Shown here piece after piece: positions 6,708-63,389 of a stretch of DNA of 64,000 nt; the first letter of the stretch is position 1, and each line of letters begins with the position of its first letter. The stretch covers positions 62,001 through 126,000 of IMG/VR virus record IMGVR_UViG_3300025646_005482. One strand, 5' to 3'. A program made the translations under genes and the position numbers. Origin of the DNA: a virus. The notes under the pieces are model-generated. The model ran no database searches. It saw only the letters and a program-made list of their open reading frames with translations, and had not been told where the DNA came from.

Positions 6708-7359
6708 ACTTTTTGAGCCCAAACCCCTAAAACGAATCAACGAGGATGGCCAGAGGCTGTACGTTACTGAAAATGGAGAAAAATATCCATCAGTAACGTC
6801 GGCCCTTGGTGCATTATCGAGGAAGAAGATATGGGAATGGAGACAGCGTGTTGGCGCCGAAACTGCCAACAAGATCTCAACACAGGCATCCCGCGCCGGT
6901 ACTGCAGTGCACCAGATTGCGGAAGACTATATTCTCGGACAGATGAAAGAAGACGTGAATCCGATCGCGTTAAACACCTTTCGAACCATCCAGCCGTATC
7001 TCGATCAGAAAGTGGACGAGATCTACGGCGTGGAACTGCAAATGTATTCGACCGAATTAAAAACGGCCGGAACAACTGATCTTATCTGCCGCTATGACGG
7101 CAAAAACACAATCTTAGACTTCAAAACATCTAAACGTTGGAAATCAAAAGACGAGATTCACTCGTACTTTATGCAAGGCGCTGCGTATGCTACGATGGTC
7201 AAAGAACACTATGATATGGATATCGAACGTATCGTGATTCTGATGGCCGTAAATGCTGGTGAAGGTGCACTCGTATTTGATGAAGCACTCGAAGATTGGC
7301 AACCAATGACACGTAAATTCTTTGATCTATATCATAAAGGAAAACTGAAGGATTTTTAA
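6676..7359 (+). CDS. PD-(D/E)XK (RecB/Cas4-like) exonuclease
   Basis: 227 residues from a TTG start inside phoH. The nuclease signature is present: GTAVHQIAE at 75-83, Glu120 (VELQM), GTTDLI with Asp135, ILDFKT with Asp148-x-Lys150, and a downstream Gln/Tyr helix (YFMQGAAYA). This order matches the exonuclease family found in T4-like marine phages and relatives of the MGME1 group. It likely acts on DNA ends in recombination or host DNA breakdown. TAATG coupling to the next gene. Confidence 0.85.
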   Translation: MQEKNSDFALKLFEPKPLKRINEDGQRLYVTENGEKYPSVTSALGALSRKKIWEWRQRVGAETANKISTQASRAGTAVHQIAEDYILGQMKEDVNPIALNTFRTIQPYLDQKVDEIYGVELQMYSTELKTAGTTDLICRYDGKNTILDFKTSKRWKSKDEIHSYFMQGAAYATMVKEHYDMDIERIVILMAVNAGEGALVFDEALEDWQPMTRKFFDLYHKGKLKDF

Positions 7360-8033
7360 TGGCTACTAAAGAAGTATTTTCGGTTACACCTGATTTCTTA
7401 TCAGTTAAAGAGTGTGATCAACTAGTAAAGTTTTGTGAAAAGTTTAAGGATCGTTGGGGAAATGGCGAAGTATCCGAAGATGGAATTGCGGGTCAAGCTG
7501 CAAGAGATCCTATCCGTAACTGCAAAACGTGGTTTATTCAAGGCGACTTCGATGAGAAAGATCAGAGAGAAGCCGAAAGATTTTACAGGATGATTGATGA
7601 AAGATTCAATCGTGTAAAATTAGAAATGGGTCTTGATAACTGGGTTATTACTGAGAGAGAAGCATTTCAGTATACACACTACGAAAAAAATGACGGATAC
7701 GGTTGGCATAAAGATACACATGATGACCCATACGACTCTGCAATGGGTACTGATCCAGCGCATGACGGTCTAAATAGAAAATTAAGTATGACTATTTTTC
7801 TAAACGATTTTGTTGAGTGGGAAGAAGGTCGCTTTGAAATAGAAAATGCATGGACTCATGGACCTAATGATCCTCATTATAGAATTCATCAGTTCCAACC
7901 AGATTATAGTGATCAAATCAGAAAGGGTACAGCAATTGTTTTCCCTTCATATGTCCAACATAGAGTATCGCCAGTACAATCTGGTGTACGTAAATCACTC
8001 GTCGCTTGGTATCTTGGTCCGCCTTGGGTTTAA
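7359..8033 (+). CDS. 2OG-Fe(II) oxygenase (PiuC/prolyl-4-hydroxylase-like)
   Basis: 224 residues. Iron ligands are readable: H117-x-D119 (GWHKDTHDD) and His201 (VQHRVSPV), with Arg211 (GVRKSLVAW) to hold 2-oxoglutarate. The EAFQYTHYEKNDGYGWHKD strand is typical of the PiuC-like branch common in cyanophages. Substrate unknown. It ends the rightward block; its last 4 bases overlap the convergent gene on the other strand, leaving no room for a terminator. Confidence 0.85.
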   Translation: MATKEVFSVTPDFLSVKECDQLVKFCEKFKDRWGNGEVSEDGIAGQAARDPIRNCKTWFIQGDFDEKDQREAERFYRMIDERFNRVKLEMGLDNWVITEREAFQYTHYEKNDGYGWHKDTHDDPYDSAMGTDPAHDGLNRKLSMTIFLNDFVEWEEGRFEIENAWTHGPNDPHYRIHQFQPDYSDQIRKGTAIVFPSYVQHRVSPVQSGVRKSLVAWYLGPPWV

Positions 8034-51568: not shown

Positions 51569-53446
51569 ATGGCTGGTGCTGGTGGTAAAGGGTTTTTAGA
51601 TAGAACTTGGGCTGCAACATATGATCAGACCTCAGCGGGTACTGCTCCTGGTTCTGACCTCAATGTAACATACGGCAAACAAATAATAGAAGTATCAGCA
51701 AGAGGTGGAACGGCTAGCGCTCCTATCTTGCAACCTGCTTATTCCGTCACAACCAATTATCCTGCTCGCGATTACACACAAAGCGCTTATCAGGTCACAA
51801 CATTTTATGCAGATGAGATAACTAATTATCCTTCTCGTATCTTTACTCAGCCTGCATATTCAGTAATTACAAACTATCCGTCACGTAATGTTGCTGATCA
51901 ACCAGCGTATGCAGTAATTACTAATTATCCTAGTCGTTCTACTAATCAACCTGCATATTCAGTAATTACAAACTATCCGTCTCGTGGTAACCCTGCGCAG
52001 CCTGCGTATAGTGTGACTACAAACTATCCGAGTCGAGCCGTACCTGATCAGCCAGCATATTCAGTAACGACTAACTATCCGAGTCGAGCCGTACCTGATC
52101 AGCCAGCATATTCAGTAACGACTAACTATCCAGCTCGTGCGACACCTGATCAACCAGCGTATGGTGTCACAACTAACTATCCTGCACGGCTATATCAACA
52201 GGCTTCTTATTCAAGTATTGTATATTATCCTGCTAGAACTAATTATCAGAGTTATCCTGCACGAACGACTAACTATCCGTCGCGCAACACACCATCACAG
52301 CCCGCATATACTACAAACTATCCTGCGCGAACGACTAACTATCCAGCTCGAGCTGTACCGAATCAGCCCTCTTATACTGCAAGTTTTCCAGCGCGTTTCG
52401 TGCCTAATCAGCCTGCATACTCGCAAAATTTCCAAAACTTTAACATCTATATGGCATACTTGTGGGGGGTTATATATTATCCATCGCGTACGGTACCAAA
52501 CCAGCCTGCGTATGTTGCTAGTTATCCAGCACGTAACGTACCATCACAGCCCGGATATAGTGTAACTCAACCAGCATATAGTGTTTCTCATCCGGCCCGT
52601 GCTAATCCTGCACAGCCAGCATATAGTGTTACTCAACCCGGTTATCAGGGTTCTGCGTATCAACCAGGATATTCTAATGTTACTAATTATCCTGCTAGAA
52701 ATTATTATCAGAATGCATACTCTGTAACGACAGCTTATCCGTCACGTGCTAATCCTGCGCAACCAGCATATAGTGTTACAACTAACTATCCGGCCCGTGC
52801 TAATCCTGCGCAACCAGCATATAGTGTGACTACAAACTATCCATCACGAGCTAATCCTGCACAGCCAGCATATAGTGTAACTACAAACTATCCATCTCGT
52901 GCGACACCTGATCAACCAGCGTATAGTGTCACGACTAACTATCCCTCTCGTAATTATTCAGAGGCAGCGTATAGTGTCACGACTAACTATCCATCGCGAG
53001 CTGTACCAAACCAACCTGCGTACTCTGTAGTGACAAATTATCCGTCACGTGCTACTACACAGCCTACATATTCTGTTACTCAACCAGCATATCAGGTTGT
53101 AACATATTATCCATCGCGAGTATATCAACAAGCAGCGTACAGTGTGATCACAAACTATCCATCTCGAGTAACAGCTGGTACCAGTGGTACAGCTACTACT
53201 TTGCAAATGACTGGCAAAGATGGTACTACATATTTGTTGACAGCTCCAGGCACTGCGACGAATGTAGCTAACTACGCTGCTCCTCCCGTGGCTACTGCAG
53301 TATATGCAACTCTTTACGCGCCTGTGGTAAAAGAGCTAGCTAATGATCCTAATGAGGCAGATGTCACATTGGGTACAAGTCCTGCTGGTCAAACTAATCC
53401 GACATATCGGCCATTTGTCAATGTGAAGTATGACGGCAACCCATAA
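51569..53446 (+). CDS. Tyr-Pro repeat protein (QPAYSVTTNYPSR repeats)
   Basis: 625 residues. A Gly-rich N-terminus (MAGAGGKGFLDRTWAATYDQ), then residues ~55-538 made of about 25 imperfect ~17-residue units with consensus QPAYSVTTNYPSRAxPx; I count 28 (Y/F/H)P(S/A)R motifs. A non-repetitive C-terminal ~90 residues follows. No cysteine and very few acidic residues in the repeats. Two neighbouring units are identical over 51 bases. Likely an extended, flexible fibre or whisker. The next gene is a prolyl-4-hydroxylase-like enzyme. I recognise no family. Confidence 0.7.
   Translation: MAGAGGKGFLDRTWAATYDQTSAGTAPGSDLNVTYGKQIIEVSARGGTASAPILQPAYSVTTNYPARDYTQSAYQVTTFYADEITNYPSRIFTQPAYSVITNYPSRNVADQPAYAVITNYPSRSTNQPAYSVITNYPSRGNPAQPAYSVTTNYPSRAVPDQPAYSVTTNYPSRAVPDQPAYSVTTNYPARATPDQPAYGVTTNYPARLYQQASYSSIVYYPARTNYQSYPARTTNYPSRNTPSQPAYTTNYPARTTNYPARAVPNQPSYTASFPARFVPNQPAYSQNFQNFNIYMAYLWGVIYYPSRTVPNQPAYVASYPARNVPSQPGYSVTQPAYSVSHPARANPAQPAYSVTQPGYQGSAYQPGYSNVTNYPARNYYQNAYSVTTAYPSRANPAQPAYSVTTNYPARANPAQPAYSVTTNYPSRANPAQPAYSVTTNYPSRATPDQPAYSVTTNYPSRNYSEAAYSVTTNYPSRAVPNQPAYSVVTNYPSRATTQPTYSVTQPAYQVVTYYPSRVYQQAAYSVITNYPSRVTAGTSGTATTLQMTGKDGTTYLLTAPGTATNVANYAAPPVATAVYATLYAPVVKELANDPNEADVTLGTSPAGQTNPTYRPFVNVKYDGNP
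52022..52123 (+). repeat. Perfect 51-bp tandem duplication inside the Tyr-Pro repeat gene
   Basis: 52022-52072 and 52073-52123 are identical and encode one 17-residue unit each. The rest of the array (about 51731-53178) has diverged copies of the same unit. Confidence 0.85.
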
Positions 53447-53451
53447 CGTCA

Positions 53452-53459
53452 TATAAATA
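53452..53459 (+). promoter_or_regulatory. T4-type late promoter box TATAAATA
   Basis: Exact octamer between the repeat protein and the oxygenase gene, 30 bases before ATG 53490; AAGGTGATC serves as ribosome site. Confidence 0.6.
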
Positions 53460-53489
53460 AAAATGTGACTATATTATTTAAGGTGATCT

Positions 53490-54116
53490 ATGTTTCAATT
53501 ACCATACTCTCTTGTTCCTCCATACGAACTTCCCCATTTTGGTGTCATGGAAAAAGTGTTCGACGAAGAAGAAGTCGAACGCATTCGTTTCTATGAAAAA
53601 ATTCTAGATTTTCAAGATGCTACGATTGTTGGGCAACAACAAGGCGATGAAGCTTCGCAAGAACAAACAGCCAGAATTGCAAAAAATGCAAGTATTCCAC
53701 ATGACGAAAATACTGTTTGGTTGTGGAATAAGATAGCGCATTTATCAGCAAAAGCAAATTATGATTTATTTTTATACGACATTTCTTTTCTCGAAGATTT
53801 AAGTTATACTGTCTACATAGGTACAGATAACGGACACTATACAAAACACATAGATACTTCTTTATTTGGTTATCGCAGATACGATAGAAAAATATCTGGT
53901 ATTTTAGTGTTGTCTGATCCAGATGAATATGAAGGAGGCACTCTGAGTATTGATGTATACGGTGGCGCGCCTGAAGACAGATGGACGAGAATAGAAAAAC
54001 CGAATAAAGGTGATTTAATTTTCTTTGATTCTAATTTCATTCACACGGTAGAACCAGTGACTAGTGGTAAACGTCAAGTGTTAGTATTTTGGGTACACGG
54101 TAAACAAAAACTATGA
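53490..54116 (+). CDS. 2OG-Fe(II) oxygenase, prolyl-4-hydroxylase-like
   Basis: 208 residues. Iron ligands H120-x-D122 (HYTKHIDTS) and His185 (FIHTVEPV); 2-oxoglutarate Arg195 (GKRQVLVFW). KISGILVLSDPDEYEGGTLSID before and GDLIFFDSNFIHTVEPV after follow the P4H/PiuC pattern closely. Located 43 bases after the Tyr-Pro repeat gene, which offers dozens of proline targets in one protein. Overlaps the next gene by 4 bases. The substrate link is inference from position. Confidence 0.88.
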   Translation: MFQLPYSLVPPYELPHFGVMEKVFDEEEVERIRFYEKILDFQDATIVGQQQGDEASQEQTARIAKNASIPHDENTVWLWNKIAHLSAKANYDLFLYDISFLEDLSYTVYIGTDNGHYTKHIDTSLFGYRRYDRKISGILVLSDPDEYEGGTLSIDVYGGAPEDRWTRIEKPNKGDLIFFDSNFIHTVEPVTSGKRQVLVFWVHGKQKL

Positions 54117-54826
54117 AAAGATTTTTTGGTAATGATATCATTGAGTTTTATACTTCTGATGATTTATATGGAAGTATACCCGAACCTGTAGAAGCAGCTA
54201 AATGTGTACCAGATTGGTTTAAAAAACTAAAACCATTCGTTGGAAGATCACGCGAAGGATTTCCTGAACCTACTGCAAAAAGATGCTTGCCTTTATTAGA
54301 TGCGATGACTCACGGCTATATCATCCCATTACAAGGTGATATTCATGTCATTTCTAATCATGATCTCAGTGTTATCAAGGCTAATGAACGAAACAGAGAT
54401 GCTCTCTTCTTGATGGATGGACATCCTAGTTTTCAAGTAGATTCTGCTGCATGGCCAGTTCAAAAACAACATCCACTCAAATTTATCAATAAGTGGAGAA
54501 TTAAAACGCGACCAGGTTGGTCGGTCCTTTTTACTGCGCCTTTAAATCATATTGGAATGCCATTTACAATTTTAAGTGGTGTTGTTGATAGTGATAAATA
54601 TCATCGCGAGGTAAATTTTCCTGCAATATGGCATGTGCCTAATTATGATGGTACTTTAAAAGCTGGCATGCCATTAGCTCAAGTAATTCCATTTAAAAGA
54701 GAAAAGTTTCCTAAGGCAAAGCCGAGAGTACAAAATAAAAAAGAAAGACAACATGAAGAAAAATTACGAGTTGCTATGGATAGCAGACATGGAGCTTATA
54801 CTGAAGAGCTGAGAGAAAAGAGATAA
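54113..54826 (+). CDS. DUF6065-like protein (paralogue 1)
   Basis: 237 residues. CVPDWFKKLKPFVGR, then HPLKFINKWRIKTRPGWSVLF, SGVVDSDKYHREVNFPAIW and LKAGMPLAQVIPFKRE are what I recall for DUF6065, an uncharacterised family found with oxygenases in marine phages and bacteria. It shares this layout with the protein at 56206. Starts in the end of the oxygenase gene, so the two are coupled. Confidence 0.6.
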   Translation: MKRFFGNDIIEFYTSDDLYGSIPEPVEAAKCVPDWFKKLKPFVGRSREGFPEPTAKRCLPLLDAMTHGYIIPLQGDIHVISNHDLSVIKANERNRDALFLMDGHPSFQVDSAAWPVQKQHPLKFINKWRIKTRPGWSVLFTAPLNHIGMPFTILSGVVDSDKYHREVNFPAIWHVPNYDGTLKAGMPLAQVIPFKREKFPKAKPRVQNKKERQHEEKLRVAMDSRHGAYTEELREKR

Positions 54827-55100: not shown

Positions 55101-55430
55101 ATGGCCGAAGAAGAAAAAGAAGTAAAAGGCTTTCATCCAGCAGATACTAATGGTGACGGTAAAGTCAGTGAAGAAGAGCATGCAATGTATATGGAGTTTA
55201 AGAGAAAGGAACTAGAAGATGCCGATGCAATGCGAGACGCACAACGAAATATGGCGTGGTTCTCTCTTGCTGGTATGCTTTTGTATCCCGCCATGGTTGT
55301 TGCTACTGATCTTGCTGGGTTAGAAAAAGCATCGAACATTTTAGGTGATATGGCGCCGACCTATTTTGTTGCAGTCGCTGGTTTAGTTGCAGCGTTCTTT
55401 GGCGCACAAGCATGGAGCAAAGGTAAGTAA
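55101..55430 (+). CDS. EF-hand protein with two membrane segments, candidate holin
   Basis: 109 residues. One canonical EF-hand loop at 15-26 (DTNGDGKVSEEE), a charged helix, then two hydrophobic segments (about 50-70 WFSLAGMLLYPAMVVAT and 86-104 YFVAVAGLVAAFFGAQA). It is directly upstream of the spanin pair, the usual place for a holin. Small size and two spans fit. The EF-hand is unusual for a holin. It could instead be another membrane protein. Confidence 0.55.
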   Translation: MAEEEKEVKGFHPADTNGDGKVSEEEHAMYMEFKRKELEDADAMRDAQRNMAWFSLAGMLLYPAMVVATDLAGLEKASNILGDMAPTYFVAVAGLVAAFFGAQAWSKGK

Positions 55431-55431
55431 T

Positions 55432-55827
55432 ATGCCGTATTTGATTTTATTATTGTTGCTTGGATCGATGGGCGGAGGCGCTTGGTATTATTATACCGAT
55501 ACACAAGAGCGCCTTGCAGTCCTTCGTGATAACAATGCAAAGCTAATGATGGTGGCTGAGACTAATCAAGAAACCATCAACAGTCTGCAACGTGACTATG
55601 AACTCGCACAAGAGAACATGCTCGCACTTGCAGAGAGGGCGAAAGCAGCAGAAGTGTATCAAGACGAATTGGCTGCAAAGCTACGTCGTCATGACCTCAC
55701 ACGACTGACCCTACAAAAACCTGGACTAATTGAAAAGAGAGTAAACAATGCTACGGACAAGATTTTCTCAGAGCTTGAAGTCGATTCTGGCGCTGAGCCT
55801 GTTGTTCCCGCTGATCAGCCTGAATAG
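55432..55827 (+). CDS. Rz: Inner-membrane spanin (Rz-like)
   Basis: 131 residues from ATG 55432, 1 base after the upstream stop. One N-terminal membrane segment (YLILLLLLGSMGGGAWYYY) and a periplasmic coiled coil (residues ~22-95), the plan of an i-spanin. The next gene, a lipoprotein, starts inside its 3' end in another frame, the usual Rz/Rz1 overlap. No lysozyme gene is in the window. Confidence 0.7.
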   Translation: MPYLILLLLLGSMGGGAWYYYTDTQERLAVLRDNNAKLMMVAETNQETINSLQRDYELAQENMLALAERAKAAEVYQDELAAKLRRHDLTRLTLQKPGLIEKRVNNATDKIFSELEVDSGAEPVVPADQPE

Positions 55828-56209
55828 TGGTTGTGCAAGCGTAGAACCAACTGTCGTAGTCAAGACCGACTACGTCGTCAAGGATATTCCTATCCAACCC
55901 CGCCCTAAACCTATGAATCTGCATAGGGTAAAGTTTTATGCTGTGACTCCTGAAAACATGGATGAGTTCCTCGTTCGGTTTGAAGAAGAGAGTGGTACTA
56001 CTGTGTTCTTTGCATTGAGTGTTCCCGATTATGAGAACATGAGCCTGAACGTAGCAGAACTGCGTCGATATATAAACCAGCAGAAAGCTCTAATTGTATA
56101 TTATGAGGAATCTATCGAGACGATGATCAGAGAAACCCCAGAAGATACAGAAGAGGTAGTGCAAGAAGGAACAGATTCTCTGTTTGACCTTTTACCAAAA
56201 TTTGATTGA
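55748..56209 (+). CDS. Rz1: Outer-membrane spanin-like lipoprotein (Rz1-like)
   Basis: 153 residues overlapping the Rz-like gene by 80 bases. A lipoprotein signal with lipobox-like LNSGC and Cys29, then a Pro-containing linker (IPIQPRPKP) and a mixed domain with a helical C-terminus. It is longer than a typical Rz1. With the upstream coiled-coil membrane protein it would span the periplasm and fuse membranes at lysis. Confidence 0.65.
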   Translation: MLRTRFSQSLKSILALSLLFPLISLNSGCASVEPTVVVKTDYVVKDIPIQPRPKPMNLHRVKFYAVTPENMDEFLVRFEEESGTTVFFALSVPDYENMSLNVAELRRYINQQKALIVYYEESIETMIRETPEDTEEVVQEGTDSLFDLLPKFD

Positions 56210-56973
56210 GTAATAACTTTATGGGAATAAGATTCTCTGATATGTCAGGCCAGTTGTATACTGTTCATCCAATAGTCCCTGCAAGGTCTGTCGAGCCAGT
56301 ACATAGAAAAATTCAAATGGAAAAATACAACAGCGAGATGTTTGCGCTGTGTCCTGGTATCATGGACTTTAAAAATACTGGTTGGATTATGCCAGCGTGG
56401 GATGATATTAGAGTATACTGTTCTGAGAAAGCATCGATGGCGTATGCTGGCGGTCAAAAAAGACCACACAACTGGAAGCTTCCGCAGCCAGTAAAAAAAG
56501 TAGAATACTATGATGGCAGAGCTCACGCCGGTCCGATGGATAAGAGAATGGTCGATGGTGTTCCTGCAAATCACGGTTGTCCTATAAAAACAGGAACACA
56601 ACCACTGCACTTTCAGTCCCCTTGGGCATGTGAAATGTTTGGTGATGATGTTGTTTCATTGATGTTATTGCCTCCATATTATCATAGTGATATAGTTGAT
56701 CATGTGCAAGTTTATCCTGGCATTGTCGATTATAATAATAAATTTGATACAATGAGTGTTGTACTAGCACCTCGTACACAGGGAACATTTACTATTAAAG
56801 CTGGAGAACCTTTAGTACATATTATTCCTATTGAAAAGAAAACATACAATGCAGAATACGGTCCAGCAAAAATGAATCGCATGAAAGGACTGGTAGCTAC
56901 GTGTAATCATTTTTATAGAAAATATATGATGAGGAAAAGTCGTTATAATTTGGAATTGAATGAAGATGTTTGA
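56206..56973 (+). CDS. DUF6065-like protein (paralogue 2)
   Basis: 255 residues from TTG 56206, or 250 from ATG 56221; neither has a clear ribosome site. CPGIMDFKNTGWIMPAWDDIRV, PLHFQSPWACEMFGDDVVSLMLLPP, YPGIVDYNNKFDTMSVVLAPR and IKAGEPLVHIIPI align by order with the protein at 54113 (substrate-like W.I, 'PLKF.N.W', 'SGVVD', 'AGxPLxxxIPF'). Two diverged copies frame the lysis genes. Function unknown. Confidence 0.55.
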   Translation: MSNNFMGIRFSDMSGQLYTVHPIVPARSVEPVHRKIQMEKYNSEMFALCPGIMDFKNTGWIMPAWDDIRVYCSEKASMAYAGGQKRPHNWKLPQPVKKVEYYDGRAHAGPMDKRMVDGVPANHGCPIKTGTQPLHFQSPWACEMFGDDVVSLMLLPPYYHSDIVDHVQVYPGIVDYNNKFDTMSVVLAPRTQGTFTIKAGEPLVHIIPIEKKTYNAEYGPAKMNRMKGLVATCNHFYRKYMMRKSRYNLELNEDV

Positions 56974-57763
56974 TAAAGAAAAACTGCGAGAATTAAAAGA
57001 AACTCTAAGACATGACGACAGACCAATTTTCCTAGAGAATGTATTAGATTCTCCTGAAGATTGGGCGAGTTGGAAGGATATAACTTATTGTTGTGAGAAT
57101 CCGAGCATATACGATGTACGCTACTTTAATAAAGTAGAATCTAAATATGATGGTGTGACCGTAGTAAAGCTCATGACTAATTCAGAGAATGAAGTTCATG
57201 CTATTGAACGCAGAGGAAGTTTAACTCGTAAAAATAAGAGATTAAATCCAGTTAAAGTTGTTGATGCTAAAAAGCTTTTAGACAAAAATCATTCTATCAT
57301 AATTACTAATTTTGAATATAAAAATGAAAATTGTAAGAGCATGATTGATTTTCTATGTCATCTATTTTATTACAATGTTGAAAATCATGGTGTATGGCCT
57401 GCAAAAATTGGTCCCAATTCTGGTCATGCCCATTGTTATGCAGGCAAAAAAGAAAGTAATTCTTTTTCTCCGCATGTAGATGGACCAGCGAATTTTATTT
57501 TTCAAATTGAAGGTCAACAAAAATTTACGGTGTACGAAAATAGAAAGTGTGCTTTAACAGAAATTGCCATGCCCGCAGATGCTACACTCGAATATAGAAA
57601 AGAAGTTTATGACAATCTGAGAGTATATGAAGAAAGAATAATGAATCCTGGTGATATGGTATATGTGCCATCTAGAACATATCATTATGTAGAACCAGTA
57701 TCTGATCGTATTTCAATGAGTTTTCCTTTGATCCTAAAGGGACCTACCTCGGTAATGTTGTAA
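56960..57763 (+). CDS. JmjC/cupin-type 2OG oxygenase-like protein
   Basis: 267 residues. FSPHVDGPANFIFQIEGQQKFTVY gives H172-x-D174 within a cupin strand; GDMVYVPSRTYHYVEPVSDRISMSF gives His242 and Arg250. This is the order of ribosomal-oxygenase (RoxA/JmjC-like) enzymes, which hydroxylate protein side chains. The N-terminal half (FLENVLDSPEDWASW) is the usual lid region. Overlaps the previous gene by 14 bases and its stop overlaps the next start. Confidence 0.75.
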   Translation: MKMFDKEKLRELKETLRHDDRPIFLENVLDSPEDWASWKDITYCCENPSIYDVRYFNKVESKYDGVTVVKLMTNSENEVHAIERRGSLTRKNKRLNPVKVVDAKKLLDKNHSIIITNFEYKNENCKSMIDFLCHLFYYNVENHGVWPAKIGPNSGHAHCYAGKKESNSFSPHVDGPANFIFQIEGQQKFTVYENRKCALTEIAMPADATLEYRKEVYDNLRVYEERIMNPGDMVYVPSRTYHYVEPVSDRISMSFPLILKGPTSVML

Positions 57764-58434
57764 TGGAAATCAATATTAAACGACATGAATTGTGGACAGA
57801 AAGTATGTTCGAAATTCATTTGCCAGACATAGACAATGAATCTATCATAAAGTTTTATGATGAAATAGAAAAAGTTGATCCTGGCCAAAAAAGATCCAAC
57901 ATTGGTGGTTGGCAAAGAGAAGTAAATCCCGGGGAATGTCAAGCATACGATGAATTGATGTATATGATGGCATACGCTGTCACAGATATTTTTAGAAATG
58001 TATTTAAATTGCCAATAGATTTAGCTATAGCAAATTCTTGGCTAAATTCTAATATATTAGGCGAGAATAATGCATTTCATACACATCCCGGCTGTGTTTA
58101 TTCTGGTGTCTATTATATCAATGCTTCAAAAGATAAAGAAAATGGGTCTATTACATTTGTAAACCCTCAGCATCATGTGATCGAAGATTGGATTTCAAAT
58201 TTGCCATTACGAAGTAACGGCGACATTGATCATAAACAATGTGAAGTGTTGCATGAAGATAAACAGTTTGCTTCTACACAACATTTTGAACCCAAATCAA
58301 ACTATGCTTATGTTTTTCCGCCGTGGACGGGACATGAAGTAAGAAAAAATCCACATTCCTTTAATCGTCTAGTTGCTGGAATCAATTTTAGACCAGCAAA
58401 TCAGCCATTGCCTGAATTAAAAGATAGAGTTTAG
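57763..58434 (+). CDS. 2OG-Fe(II) oxygenase of the TIGR02466 type
   Basis: 223 residues. WLNSNILGENNAFHTHPGCVYSGVYYIN contains the H106-x-H108 site of this subfamily (His in place of the usual Asp), and FPPWTGHEVRKN gives His191, with Arg202 following. SNIGGWQRE near 45 is another landmark. Substrate unknown. Third oxygenase of the island. Confidence 0.75.
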   Translation: MEINIKRHELWTESMFEIHLPDIDNESIIKFYDEIEKVDPGQKRSNIGGWQREVNPGECQAYDELMYMMAYAVTDIFRNVFKLPIDLAIANSWLNSNILGENNAFHTHPGCVYSGVYYINASKDKENGSITFVNPQHHVIEDWISNLPLRSNGDIDHKQCEVLHEDKQFASTQHFEPKSNYAYVFPPWTGHEVRKNPHSFNRLVAGINFRPANQPLPELKDRV

Positions 58435-61821: not shown

Positions 61822-63389
61822 TGCCATTTCTTGGTAGGGCGCCAGTAAGAGCTATCACTGATCTTAGTATCGATGGTTCAACAATACAAAACGCAACGAT
61901 CGCAAACTCAACGATCACCGCGGGTACAATCACGTCTGCAACAATTGATACTGCGACCTTATCAAATACTGCCGTTTCATTAGAAAACGGAACGATTACT
62001 AATTGCGATATTTCAGGTGGTACCATCAATGCTACTGCTATATCGTCTGGAACAATTACTGATACAGATATTCAAGCTGGCACAGTAAATGCTACCGCTG
62101 TAACTTCTACTAGTTTCACTGATATTACTATTTCTGGTGGCACAATATCTACCGCATCAATTACATCGGGCACTATCGCTGATGCAGCTATCAGTAATAC
62201 AAGTATAGAAACTGGTACTATCAACGCTGCTAGCATTTCAGCTGGTTCGATTAGCGGAACAGATATAGAAGGTGGTACTATCAATGCCACTGCTATTTCA
62301 GCTGGTTCTATTAGCGGAGCAGATATCGAAGGTGGTACAGTAAATGCGACAGCAGTAACTTCAACTAGTTTCTCTGATATTACTATTTCAAGTAGTACTA
62401 TTAGTTCTACGGCGATCAGTACTGGTTCGATATCTGCTGCTAGTATTTCTGCCGGCACGATCGCTGATGCTAGCATAAGCAATACTACTATCACCACTGG
62501 TTCTATTACCAGTACGTCTATTACCAGTGCGGATATCGAAACTAGCACAATAAATGCATCATCGATCTCTGCTGGTACTATTGCTGGTGCTGATATTGAT
62601 AGCGGTACTATCTCGTCGACGACTATTGATACAGCTACTATATCAAATACTTCTTTGAATCTTACTGGTGGCACTCTTACTGGTGTCGATATCGAAGCTG
62701 GTACCATCAATGCAACAACAATTACAGATGCTTCAATTTCTAATACAACTATAGAGACAGGCACGATCAATGCTGCTAGTATTTCGGCTGGTTCGATATC
62801 TGGCGCCGATATTTCTGGTGGTACTATCACGTCATCTACAATTGAAAGTGGTACTGTGAACGCGGCTGCAGTGACGTCGACAACATTTACGGATATCGAT
62901 ATCACCGGTGGTACTATCAGCACAGCATCAATCAGCGCTGGAACGATTGAAGATGCTAGCATAAGCAATACTACTATCACCACTGGTTCTATTACAAGTA
63001 CATCCATCAGCTCTGGTACGATTACAAATGCTGACATTAGTGGTGGTTCTATCACTCACTCTTCGTTCATCGAAAAGAAAGTTGCGGCGACTTCAGGAAC
63101 CGGCACGAAGACATACAGTCTCAACGATGGTTCTTCGTTCGAGCACACAGGATCAGGAGCATTTACTGCAAACTTTACGAATGTGCCCGGAACACATACC
63201 ACTTCTTGGACATTGGAAGTCAACAATGGTGGAACAGCACACACGATTACATGGCAAGTTGCTGGAGCTGATGCGGTCAATTGGTCAGAAGGTATCATAC
63301 CTCCACCATCTACAGGCACAGACATCTATAGCTTTATCTCTGTAGCAGGTACAGTTTATGGATCACTCGCAATAAGGAACGGTAGCTAA
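61821..63389 (+). CDS. Beta-helical tail fibre with pentapeptide-like repeats and shared tip
   Basis: 522 residues. After a short N-terminus, residues ~15-415 are a nearly continuous repeat of 5-residue steps such as GTINA-TAISA-GSISG-ADIEG, matching a right-handed beta-helix with Ser/Thr/Gly/Ile faces. The last ~100 residues carry the tip (VNWSEGIIPPPSTGTDIYSF, GSLAIRNGS) shared with 50536 and 60174. Two 44-base stretches (62466-62509 and 62952-62995) are identical. Confidence 0.8.
   Translation: MPFLGRAPVRAITDLSIDGSTIQNATIANSTITAGTITSATIDTATLSNTAVSLENGTITNCDISGGTINATAISSGTITDTDIQAGTVNATAVTSTSFTDITISGGTISTASITSGTIADAAISNTSIETGTINAASISAGSISGTDIEGGTINATAISAGSISGADIEGGTVNATAVTSTSFSDITISSSTISSTAISTGSISAASISAGTIADASISNTTITTGSITSTSITSADIETSTINASSISAGTIAGADIDSGTISSTTIDTATISNTSLNLTGGTLTGVDIEAGTINATTITDASISNTTIETGTINAASISAGSISGADISGGTITSSTIESGTVNAAAVTSTTFTDIDITGGTISTASISAGTIEDASISNTTITTGSITSTSISSGTITNADISGGSITHSSFIEKKVAATSGTGTKTYSLNDGSSFEHTGSGAFTANFTNVPGTHTTSWTLEVNNGGTAHTITWQVAGADAVNWSEGIIPPPSTGTDIYSFISVAGTVYGSLAIRNGS
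62466..62995 (+). repeat. Direct repeat within the beta-helical fibre gene
   Basis: 62466-62509 and 62952-62995 are identical (44 bases), embedded in a whole gene of shorter degenerate repeats; a sign of recent internal recombination or duplication. Confidence 0.7.

Follow-up and report, generated by a model that had tools for sequence, protein, structure and literature searches.

The window analyzed here is a 64,000-nucleotide stretch of viral DNA, positions 62,001 to 126,000 of the IMG/VR record IMGVR_UViG_3300025646_005482, which is 160,330 bases long in full. It carries two adjacent genes, one encoding a proline-rich repeat protein and the other a predicted Fe(II)/2-oxoglutarate (2OG) oxygenase. 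The repeat open reading frame (ORF) lies at 51569–53446 on the + strand, starts with ATG and encodes 625 amino acids (aa). The oxygenase ORF (53490–54116) also starts with ATG, 43 bases past the end of the repeat ORF, and both the coordinates and the gap reported in the initial annotation of these letters proved exact. We found that this arrangement recurs in diverged phages, and we propose that the enzyme probably hydroxylates prolines of the repeat protein encoded beside it.

The repeat protein is dominated by Pro, Tyr, Ala and Thr, with 78 Pro and 77 Tyr. We counted 28 strict [YFH]P[SA]R motifs, together with 19 copies of QPAY and 24 of QPxY, at a usual unit spacing of 17 residues. The roughly 25 units and 28 motifs noticed initially were therefore reproduced, and shuffled versions of the protein carried a mean of 0.11 YPSR-type motifs and a maximum of 3 (2000 trials). 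The protein contains 31 Arg, 28 of them inside P.R, and just 5 Lys. Since invariance of Pro and Arg is circular in units chosen by the P.R pattern, it was rechecked with alignment columns and QPAY anchors, and P.R was located 7 residues past the QPAY-type Tyr at 19 of 28 anchors. The dN/dS of 0.24 among units shares the same selection bias and was not used as evidence. The invariant motif Pro is encoded by CCA (10), CCG (9), CCT (8) and CCC (1), and the motif Arg by five codons. Because many synonymous codons are used at both positions, the units are old rather than the product of fresh DNA slippage, and the motif is maintained by selection on the protein and not by recent copying. The protein is not a collagen: it has 24 Gly in 625 residues and no Pfam Collagen match, and the Gly-X-Y run of related YPSR proteins was 0. 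A tblastn search of annotated phage sequences with this protein as query returned no matches, partly since the low-complexity filter masks the repeats.

The downstream enzyme matches PF13640 (2OG-FeII_Oxy_3) at 6e-15 with 56.4 bits, above the cut-off of 27. H120, D122 and H185, initially proposed to bind iron, and R195, proposed to bind 2OG, form an HxD...H triad plus basic residue that is invariant across 26 relatives, which suggests that selection acts on catalysis. The AlphaFold (AF2) model of the enzyme had a pLDDT of 83 and a pTM of 0.83. Its top PDB matches were a PKHD protein, PiuC, the P. putida prolyl 4-hydroxylase (P4H; PPHD):EF-Tu complex (third best) and PHD2 with HIF peptides, and it shared the double-stranded beta-helix of solved prolyl hydroxylases (TMq 0.64–0.69 for PHD2 and 0.66 for PPHD, E ~1e-10). 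By sequence, PiuC was nearest (3e-14, profile), followed by B. anthracis P4H (2e-6), P. putida P4H, Chlamydomonas P4H and PHD2.

The structural matches place the fold of the enzyme among those of prolyl hydroxylases and PKHD proteins, and its 2OG site locates it further. Collagen-type P4Hs bind the C5 carboxylate of 2OG through Lys, not Arg, and PHD2 has Arg at this site. The corresponding residue here is Arg195 in 26 of 26 relatives, which sets the enzyme apart from collagen-type and algal P4Hs. PHD2 and PKHD proteins likewise bind 2OG through Arg, and "prolyl hydroxylase of PHD/PKHD type" is therefore the name that fits it. The P4H-like label given initially thus held for fold and family and failed for the collagen type. 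Within NCBIfam, the best PKHD model gave 62.3 bits against an equivalog cut-off of 143 (PRK05467, PiuC/YbiX). A bacterial origin of the enzyme was considered and rejected. Even its best cellular relatives share just ~32% identity along most of its length, so that the enzyme clade looks phage-specific.

The pairing of the two genes was approached from three sides, namely the enzyme, the DNA pattern of the repeat and the glycosyltransferase (GT60) gene of a separate group of phages. From the enzyme side, in L001, whose enzyme is 53% identical, a homologue of the YPSR/QPAY protein is encoded 24 bases before the enzyme gene. A DNA pattern for QPAYxVxTxYP recovered 7 viral loci from 4–5 distinct lineages; the enzyme was the next gene in all 7, and a repeat protein standing without the enzyme, a finding that the initial annotation had named as telling against its proposal, was not encountered among them. 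Repeat copies reached through the GT60 gene likewise had the enzyme next to them. The repeat proteins share an N-terminal domain, also common to those of other repeat classes, which was present in 20 distinct repeat proteins (44 copies); its alignment is too weakly conserved for a search of the whole collection. The enzyme followed in 19 of these 20, at a distance of 15–43 bases, the sole exception being a second repeat copy at a locus where the first has the enzyme next.

In a tree of 83 enzymes, the window enzyme fell in a 13-row clade (SH-aLRT 95), and the repeat gene was at position -1 in 12 of 12 members with upstream sequence; the contig of the 13th ends at its upstream side. Enzymes without a repeat protein, the converse case raised initially, were seen only outside this clade. 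YPSR-partnered enzymes formed a subclade of their own (SH-aLRT 97), and enzymes with FNIIPGN/NYNPLVPG-type partners formed a separate one (96). The repeat class varies by subclade (YPSR, FNIIPGN, NYNPLVPG, TPGNY), and the N-terminal domain and high proline content persist. Of the 59 dereplicated enzymes for which flanking sequence was available, 14 (24%) had a repeat or collagen-like gene as an immediate neighbour, compared with 19 of 452 other genes (4%) at the same loci; related rows contribute to this contrast, which therefore supports the pairing without serving as a clean probability. These results indicate that the pairing of repeat gene and enzyme is not due to chance.

The surroundings of the pair are those of a tail region (Table 1). 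T4-type baseplate families (phrog_230, 232, 350, 430, 219 and 438) were matched upstream, and a virion/tail-fibre protein, a phrog_644 protein and a tail-fibre-matching protein precede the repeat gene in that order. With baseplate and fibre PHROGs upstream, the repeat gene stands where a phage tail fibre gene is expected. One tail protein is ~22% identical to its nearest isolates, relatives of Sinorhizobium phage phiM12 and marine T4-like phages, and together with the baseplate genes this marks the source as a contractile-tail phage of a distant lineage. The motif TATAAATA, which we take to be the T4 late-promoter consensus, occurs 12 times in the window against 6.4 expected, a count reached in 0 of 100 shuffles, and one copy lies in the 43-base gap. 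Baseplate genes, tail-fibre-matching neighbours and this motif all agree with the late-region location assigned initially. TATAAATA sites include 46576, 53452 and 58446, and several sites lie just 5' of late genes.

Table 1 Features at and around the repeat protein and oxygenase genes (window coordinates)
Feature	Coordinates	Strand	Basis
Large tail-fibre/virion structural protein, 1120 aa	46745..50107	+	phrog_19195 virion structural 1e-55; phrog_3484 tail fiber 4e-21
Tail-fibre-like protein immediately before repeat gene, 340 aa	50536..51558	+	phrog_7760, phrog_9017 tail fiber ~1e-6
N-terminal domain of repeat protein, TW...IPYGKxIIEIxxRGG type	51569..51730	+	Alignment and local HMM; 44 copies matched across loci
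Repeat region, ~25-28 units QPAYSVTTNYP(S/A)R, usual period 17 residues	51731..53189	+	Motif counts against shuffles; anchors
Non-repetitive C-terminal part of repeat protein, FVNVKYDG / FINMKYD kept in relatives	53190..53446	+	Alignment
TATAAATA, T4-type late-promoter-like motif in the 43-base gap	53452..53459	+	Window count against shuffles; presumed function
Prolyl-hydroxylase-like Fe(II)/2OG oxygenase, 208 aa	53490..54116	+	PF13640 6e-15; residues; AF2 pLDDT 83
DUF6065 protein, common downstream partner	54113..54826	+	PF19541 7e-10; neighbour in several relatives
Second DUF6065-related protein (phrog_7084)	56206..56973	+	Kept in L001 and L130

Further downstream lie small membrane proteins resembling lysis genes, a JmjC_2 protein and another oxygenase. 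The ORFs at 55101–56209 comprise a small membrane protein with an EF-hand-like start, followed by overlapping ORFs at 55387–55827 and 55748–56209, the latter carrying a lipoprotein-like SGCAS signal; they may be a holin and spanin pair. The JmjC_2 (PF08007) protein at 56960–57763 is back to back with a 2OG-FeII_Oxy_5 (PF13759) protein at 57763–58434, and its gene is also present in the records of L001, L129 and L135. For the DUF6065 proteins, a dUTPase/dCTP-deaminase fold suggested by eye was dropped, as a profile search of solved structures found no relative. A second PF13640 oxygenase (7359–8033) stands outside the fibre region and adjoins genes that read as PhoH-like and nuclease-like.

Based on these data, we suggest that the two genes, which lie among the late tail genes of a T4-like marine phage, encode a fibre and its modifying enzyme. 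The 625-aa product would most probably serve as a fibre or fibre tip of extended, repetitive build. Its repeat prolines, with the constant Pro of Y-P-x-R as the foremost candidate, would be hydroxylated by the PHD/PKHD-type enzyme late in infection and ahead of fibre assembly into the virion, where the modification might affect rigidity, folding or host binding. The stiffer or more adhesive fibre suggested initially is a hypothetical outcome of this kind. We compared the repeat classes YPSR, FNIIPGNATGT with GPQNFNPATN, NYNPLVPG, YNVVYP and TPGNY. Pro accounted for 9.9–14.7% of residues in every class, and outside the YPSR class Lys made up 1.1–1.5% and Arg 0.5–2.2%. In the alignment of six YPSR-class proteins the invariant columns were Pro, Arg and Tyr. 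Pro is thus common to all repeat classes and invariant in the YPSR spine, which points to Pro as the target. The core of the initial proposal, that the phage enzyme modifies the prolines of its adjacent repeat protein, is better supported by the multi-locus pairing than it was at first, with details corrected, and we consider it likely. The peptides QPAYSVTTNYPSRAVPD and PGNATGTFNIIPGNA are candidate substrates for assessing the repeat-class preference of the enzymes.

Other targets have to be weighed against proline. The enzyme might hydroxylate the repeat protein on a different residue, such as the Asn of TNYP or an Asp, in the manner of factor-inhibiting-HIF-type or aspartyl hydroxylases. 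The 2OG oxygenase fold serves many residues, Asn makes up 6–19% of all repeat classes, and the enzyme has a weak, sub-threshold match to Asp_Arg_Hydrox. We nevertheless regard this as unlikely: the Asn position of the YPSR class varies to Asp, Tyr, Ser and Leu while the Pro is constant, and the structures that fit the enzyme model best are those of prolyl hydroxylases and PKHD proteins. Slightly less probable again is a host target, for example EF-Tu, as for P. putida P4H, or a ribosomal protein, with the proximity to a fibre gene reflecting nothing but shared late expression. Such a target would fit the rank of the P. putida complex among the structural matches and the late-promoter-like motif that the enzyme gene has to itself, yet it would predict neither the 15–43-base spacing to the repeat gene across diverged phages nor the splitting of enzyme subclades by repeat class.

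The same matching of repeat class and enzyme subclade bears on passive linkage, in which the pair travels as a tail-module block and the enzyme acts elsewhere in the phage or helps assembly without catalysing a reaction. Phage tail modules do shuffle as blocks, and the enzyme holds the slot between distal fibre and lysis genes that gp38 occupies in T4. Against this, the invariant iron- and 2OG-binding residues point to selection for catalysis, and L001 keeps the pair though its first DUF6065 gene is absent; we give this explanation very little weight. The least probable reading is AlkB-like repair or modification of nucleic acids, published for the cyanophage Syn9 homologues beside uvsX/uvsY (PMC2984593) and echoed by the DNA-metabolism-like neighbours of the second oxygenase of this phage, because the gene sits among baseplate, fibre and lysis-like genes in a clade tied to repeat proteins and its matches in Pfam, NCBIfam and fold comparisons are P4H/PKHD proteins, with no AlkB family among them.

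Several observations count against hydroxylation of the repeat prolines. The closest sequence relatives with structures are PKHD/PiuC proteins, for which no substrate was found in the literature searched. Asn and aromatic residues are also frequent in the repeats, and the sequence does not fix the target residue. The repeat protein had no family match in Pfam or PHROG profile searches and its AlphaFold model, at a pLDDT of 36, was too poor to use, so that gene position and shared architecture are the grounds for calling it a fibre. In the wider enzyme family a repeat neighbour is often missing, as for the oxygenase at 7359–8033, and related phages share ancestry, so the 12 clade cases do not amount to 12 independent events. 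Finally, the P4H of chloroviruses is active, but no hydroxyproline was seen in their virions (PMC7019647).

Beyond the clade, collagen-like genes occur close to distant members of the enzyme family on several separate branches. In S-PRM1, an isolate with Synechococcus WH7803 as its host, a fibre of 1824 aa combines collagen repeats (PF01391, 3e-25) with an S74 chaperone domain. Its gene is followed by a small gene, by the genes for two PF13640 oxygenases and then by one whose product has both a GT25 (5e-29) and a PLOD glycosyltransferase (9e-46) domain. S-8S55 has the same gene order, with a glycosyltransferase at 68% identity, and in S-CAM9 the same glycosyltransferase adjoins a 2OG oxygenase. 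The S-PRM1 genes (L136:546-9387), like those in L150, L147 and L034, are annotated mostly as hypothetical proteins. From its domain content, this fibre–oxygenase–GT25/PLOD cluster of cultured cyanophages is a candidate cassette for collagen hydroxylation and glycosylation. Two other stretches (L148:110-2971 and L149:1201-3292) encode GT25-type proteins with an N-terminal histidine run (MQHHHHHE), with no oxygenase match in the stretch examined. In L014 and L018, arrays of several genes that read as oxygenase-like stand beside FAD-dependent halogenase-like proteins with a GGGTAGW motif.

In the branch with non-YPSR repeats formed by L003, L007, L008 and L010, a GT60 gene (PF11397, 4e-26; L003:6347-7366) lies a few genes downstream of the enzyme. 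Among GT60 members are the Skp1 hydroxyproline GlcNAc-transferases. The 160-kb record of the window contained no GT60 match, so that the glycosylation suggested initially is not supported for this phage, and none was found in the records of L001, L129, L130, L132, L134 and L135, several of which are fragments. A constant role of GT60 in the pathway was accordingly rejected for the YPSR phages. GT60 homologues also occur in the isolates XacN1 and RAS14, where the annotation of the surrounding stretches names no oxygenase among the products. As a tentative proposal, to which we give somewhat less than an even chance, marine tailed phages may share a general fibre-maturation chemistry, in which PHD/PKHD-type hydroxylases modify Pro, and in some lineages also Lys, of repetitive or collagen-like fibres and GT60 or GT25/PLOD-type sugars are added in some of them, with the YPSR pair as a non-collagen branch.

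P4H-domain oxygenases are common in marine phages, and a clade tied to an adjacent proline-repeat gene supplies a concrete candidate substrate. A Baltic virus study called the use of such genes cryptic (PMC9301287), and bacteria and viruses were said to lack the hydroxylases in a study of prophage collagen-like fibres (PMC3368898). We found no report of hydroxyproline in bacteriophage fibres in the literature searched, whose coverage mostly excluded subscription papers. S-PRM1, S-CAM9 and S-8S55 offer a parallel system with laboratory Synechococcus hosts. If the proposed hydroxylation is correct, host oxygen, iron and 2OG would influence how the fibre matures, and hydroxylated structural repeats would be known from phage fibres as well as from collagen and plant wall proteins.

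Compared with known systems, the window enzyme shares its fold and its iron and 2OG residues with P. putida P4H and human PHD2, which differ in acting on single sites in soluble proteins and are ~20% identical to it. The PKHD-type hydroxylases PiuC and YbiX, its nearest relatives by sequence, are found in an iron-uptake context, and the enzyme scores far under their NCBIfam cut-offs. Bacillus anthracis P4H, according to the account of Schnicker and Dey (2016) given in PMC8968730, is a prolyl hydroxylase of repetitive Pro and collagen-like substrates; it is, however, a cellular enzyme with another substrate sequence. Phage collagen-like fibres, such as prophage EPclA (PMC3368898) and the triple collagen repeats of pelagimyophages (PMC7029224), are repetitive Pro-containing tail fibres like the one proposed here, but the window repeat is not Gly-X-Y and the prophage fibres were described without hydroxylation (PMC3368898). 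Among viruses, chlorovirus PBCV-1 also encodes a prolyl hydroxylase, which prefers Pro-containing peptides in a sequence-specific manner (Eriksson et al. 1999, as cited in PMC7019647 and PMC9301287). PBCV-1 is a eukaryotic virus with no detected virion hydroxyproline (PMC7019647), whereas the window enzyme belongs to a bacteriophage, is of PHD/PKHD type and directly follows a repeat gene in a conserved pairing. Mimivirus L230, a lysyl hydroxylase/glucosyltransferase, and R699 (PMC9546862) are similar in that 2OG hydroxylation and then GT25/PLOD-type glycosylation are applied by the virus to repetitive proteins of its own; in contrast to their substrates, the window repeat protein is Lys-poor and not collagen, and the closer analogue of the Mimivirus system is the S-PRM1 cassette.
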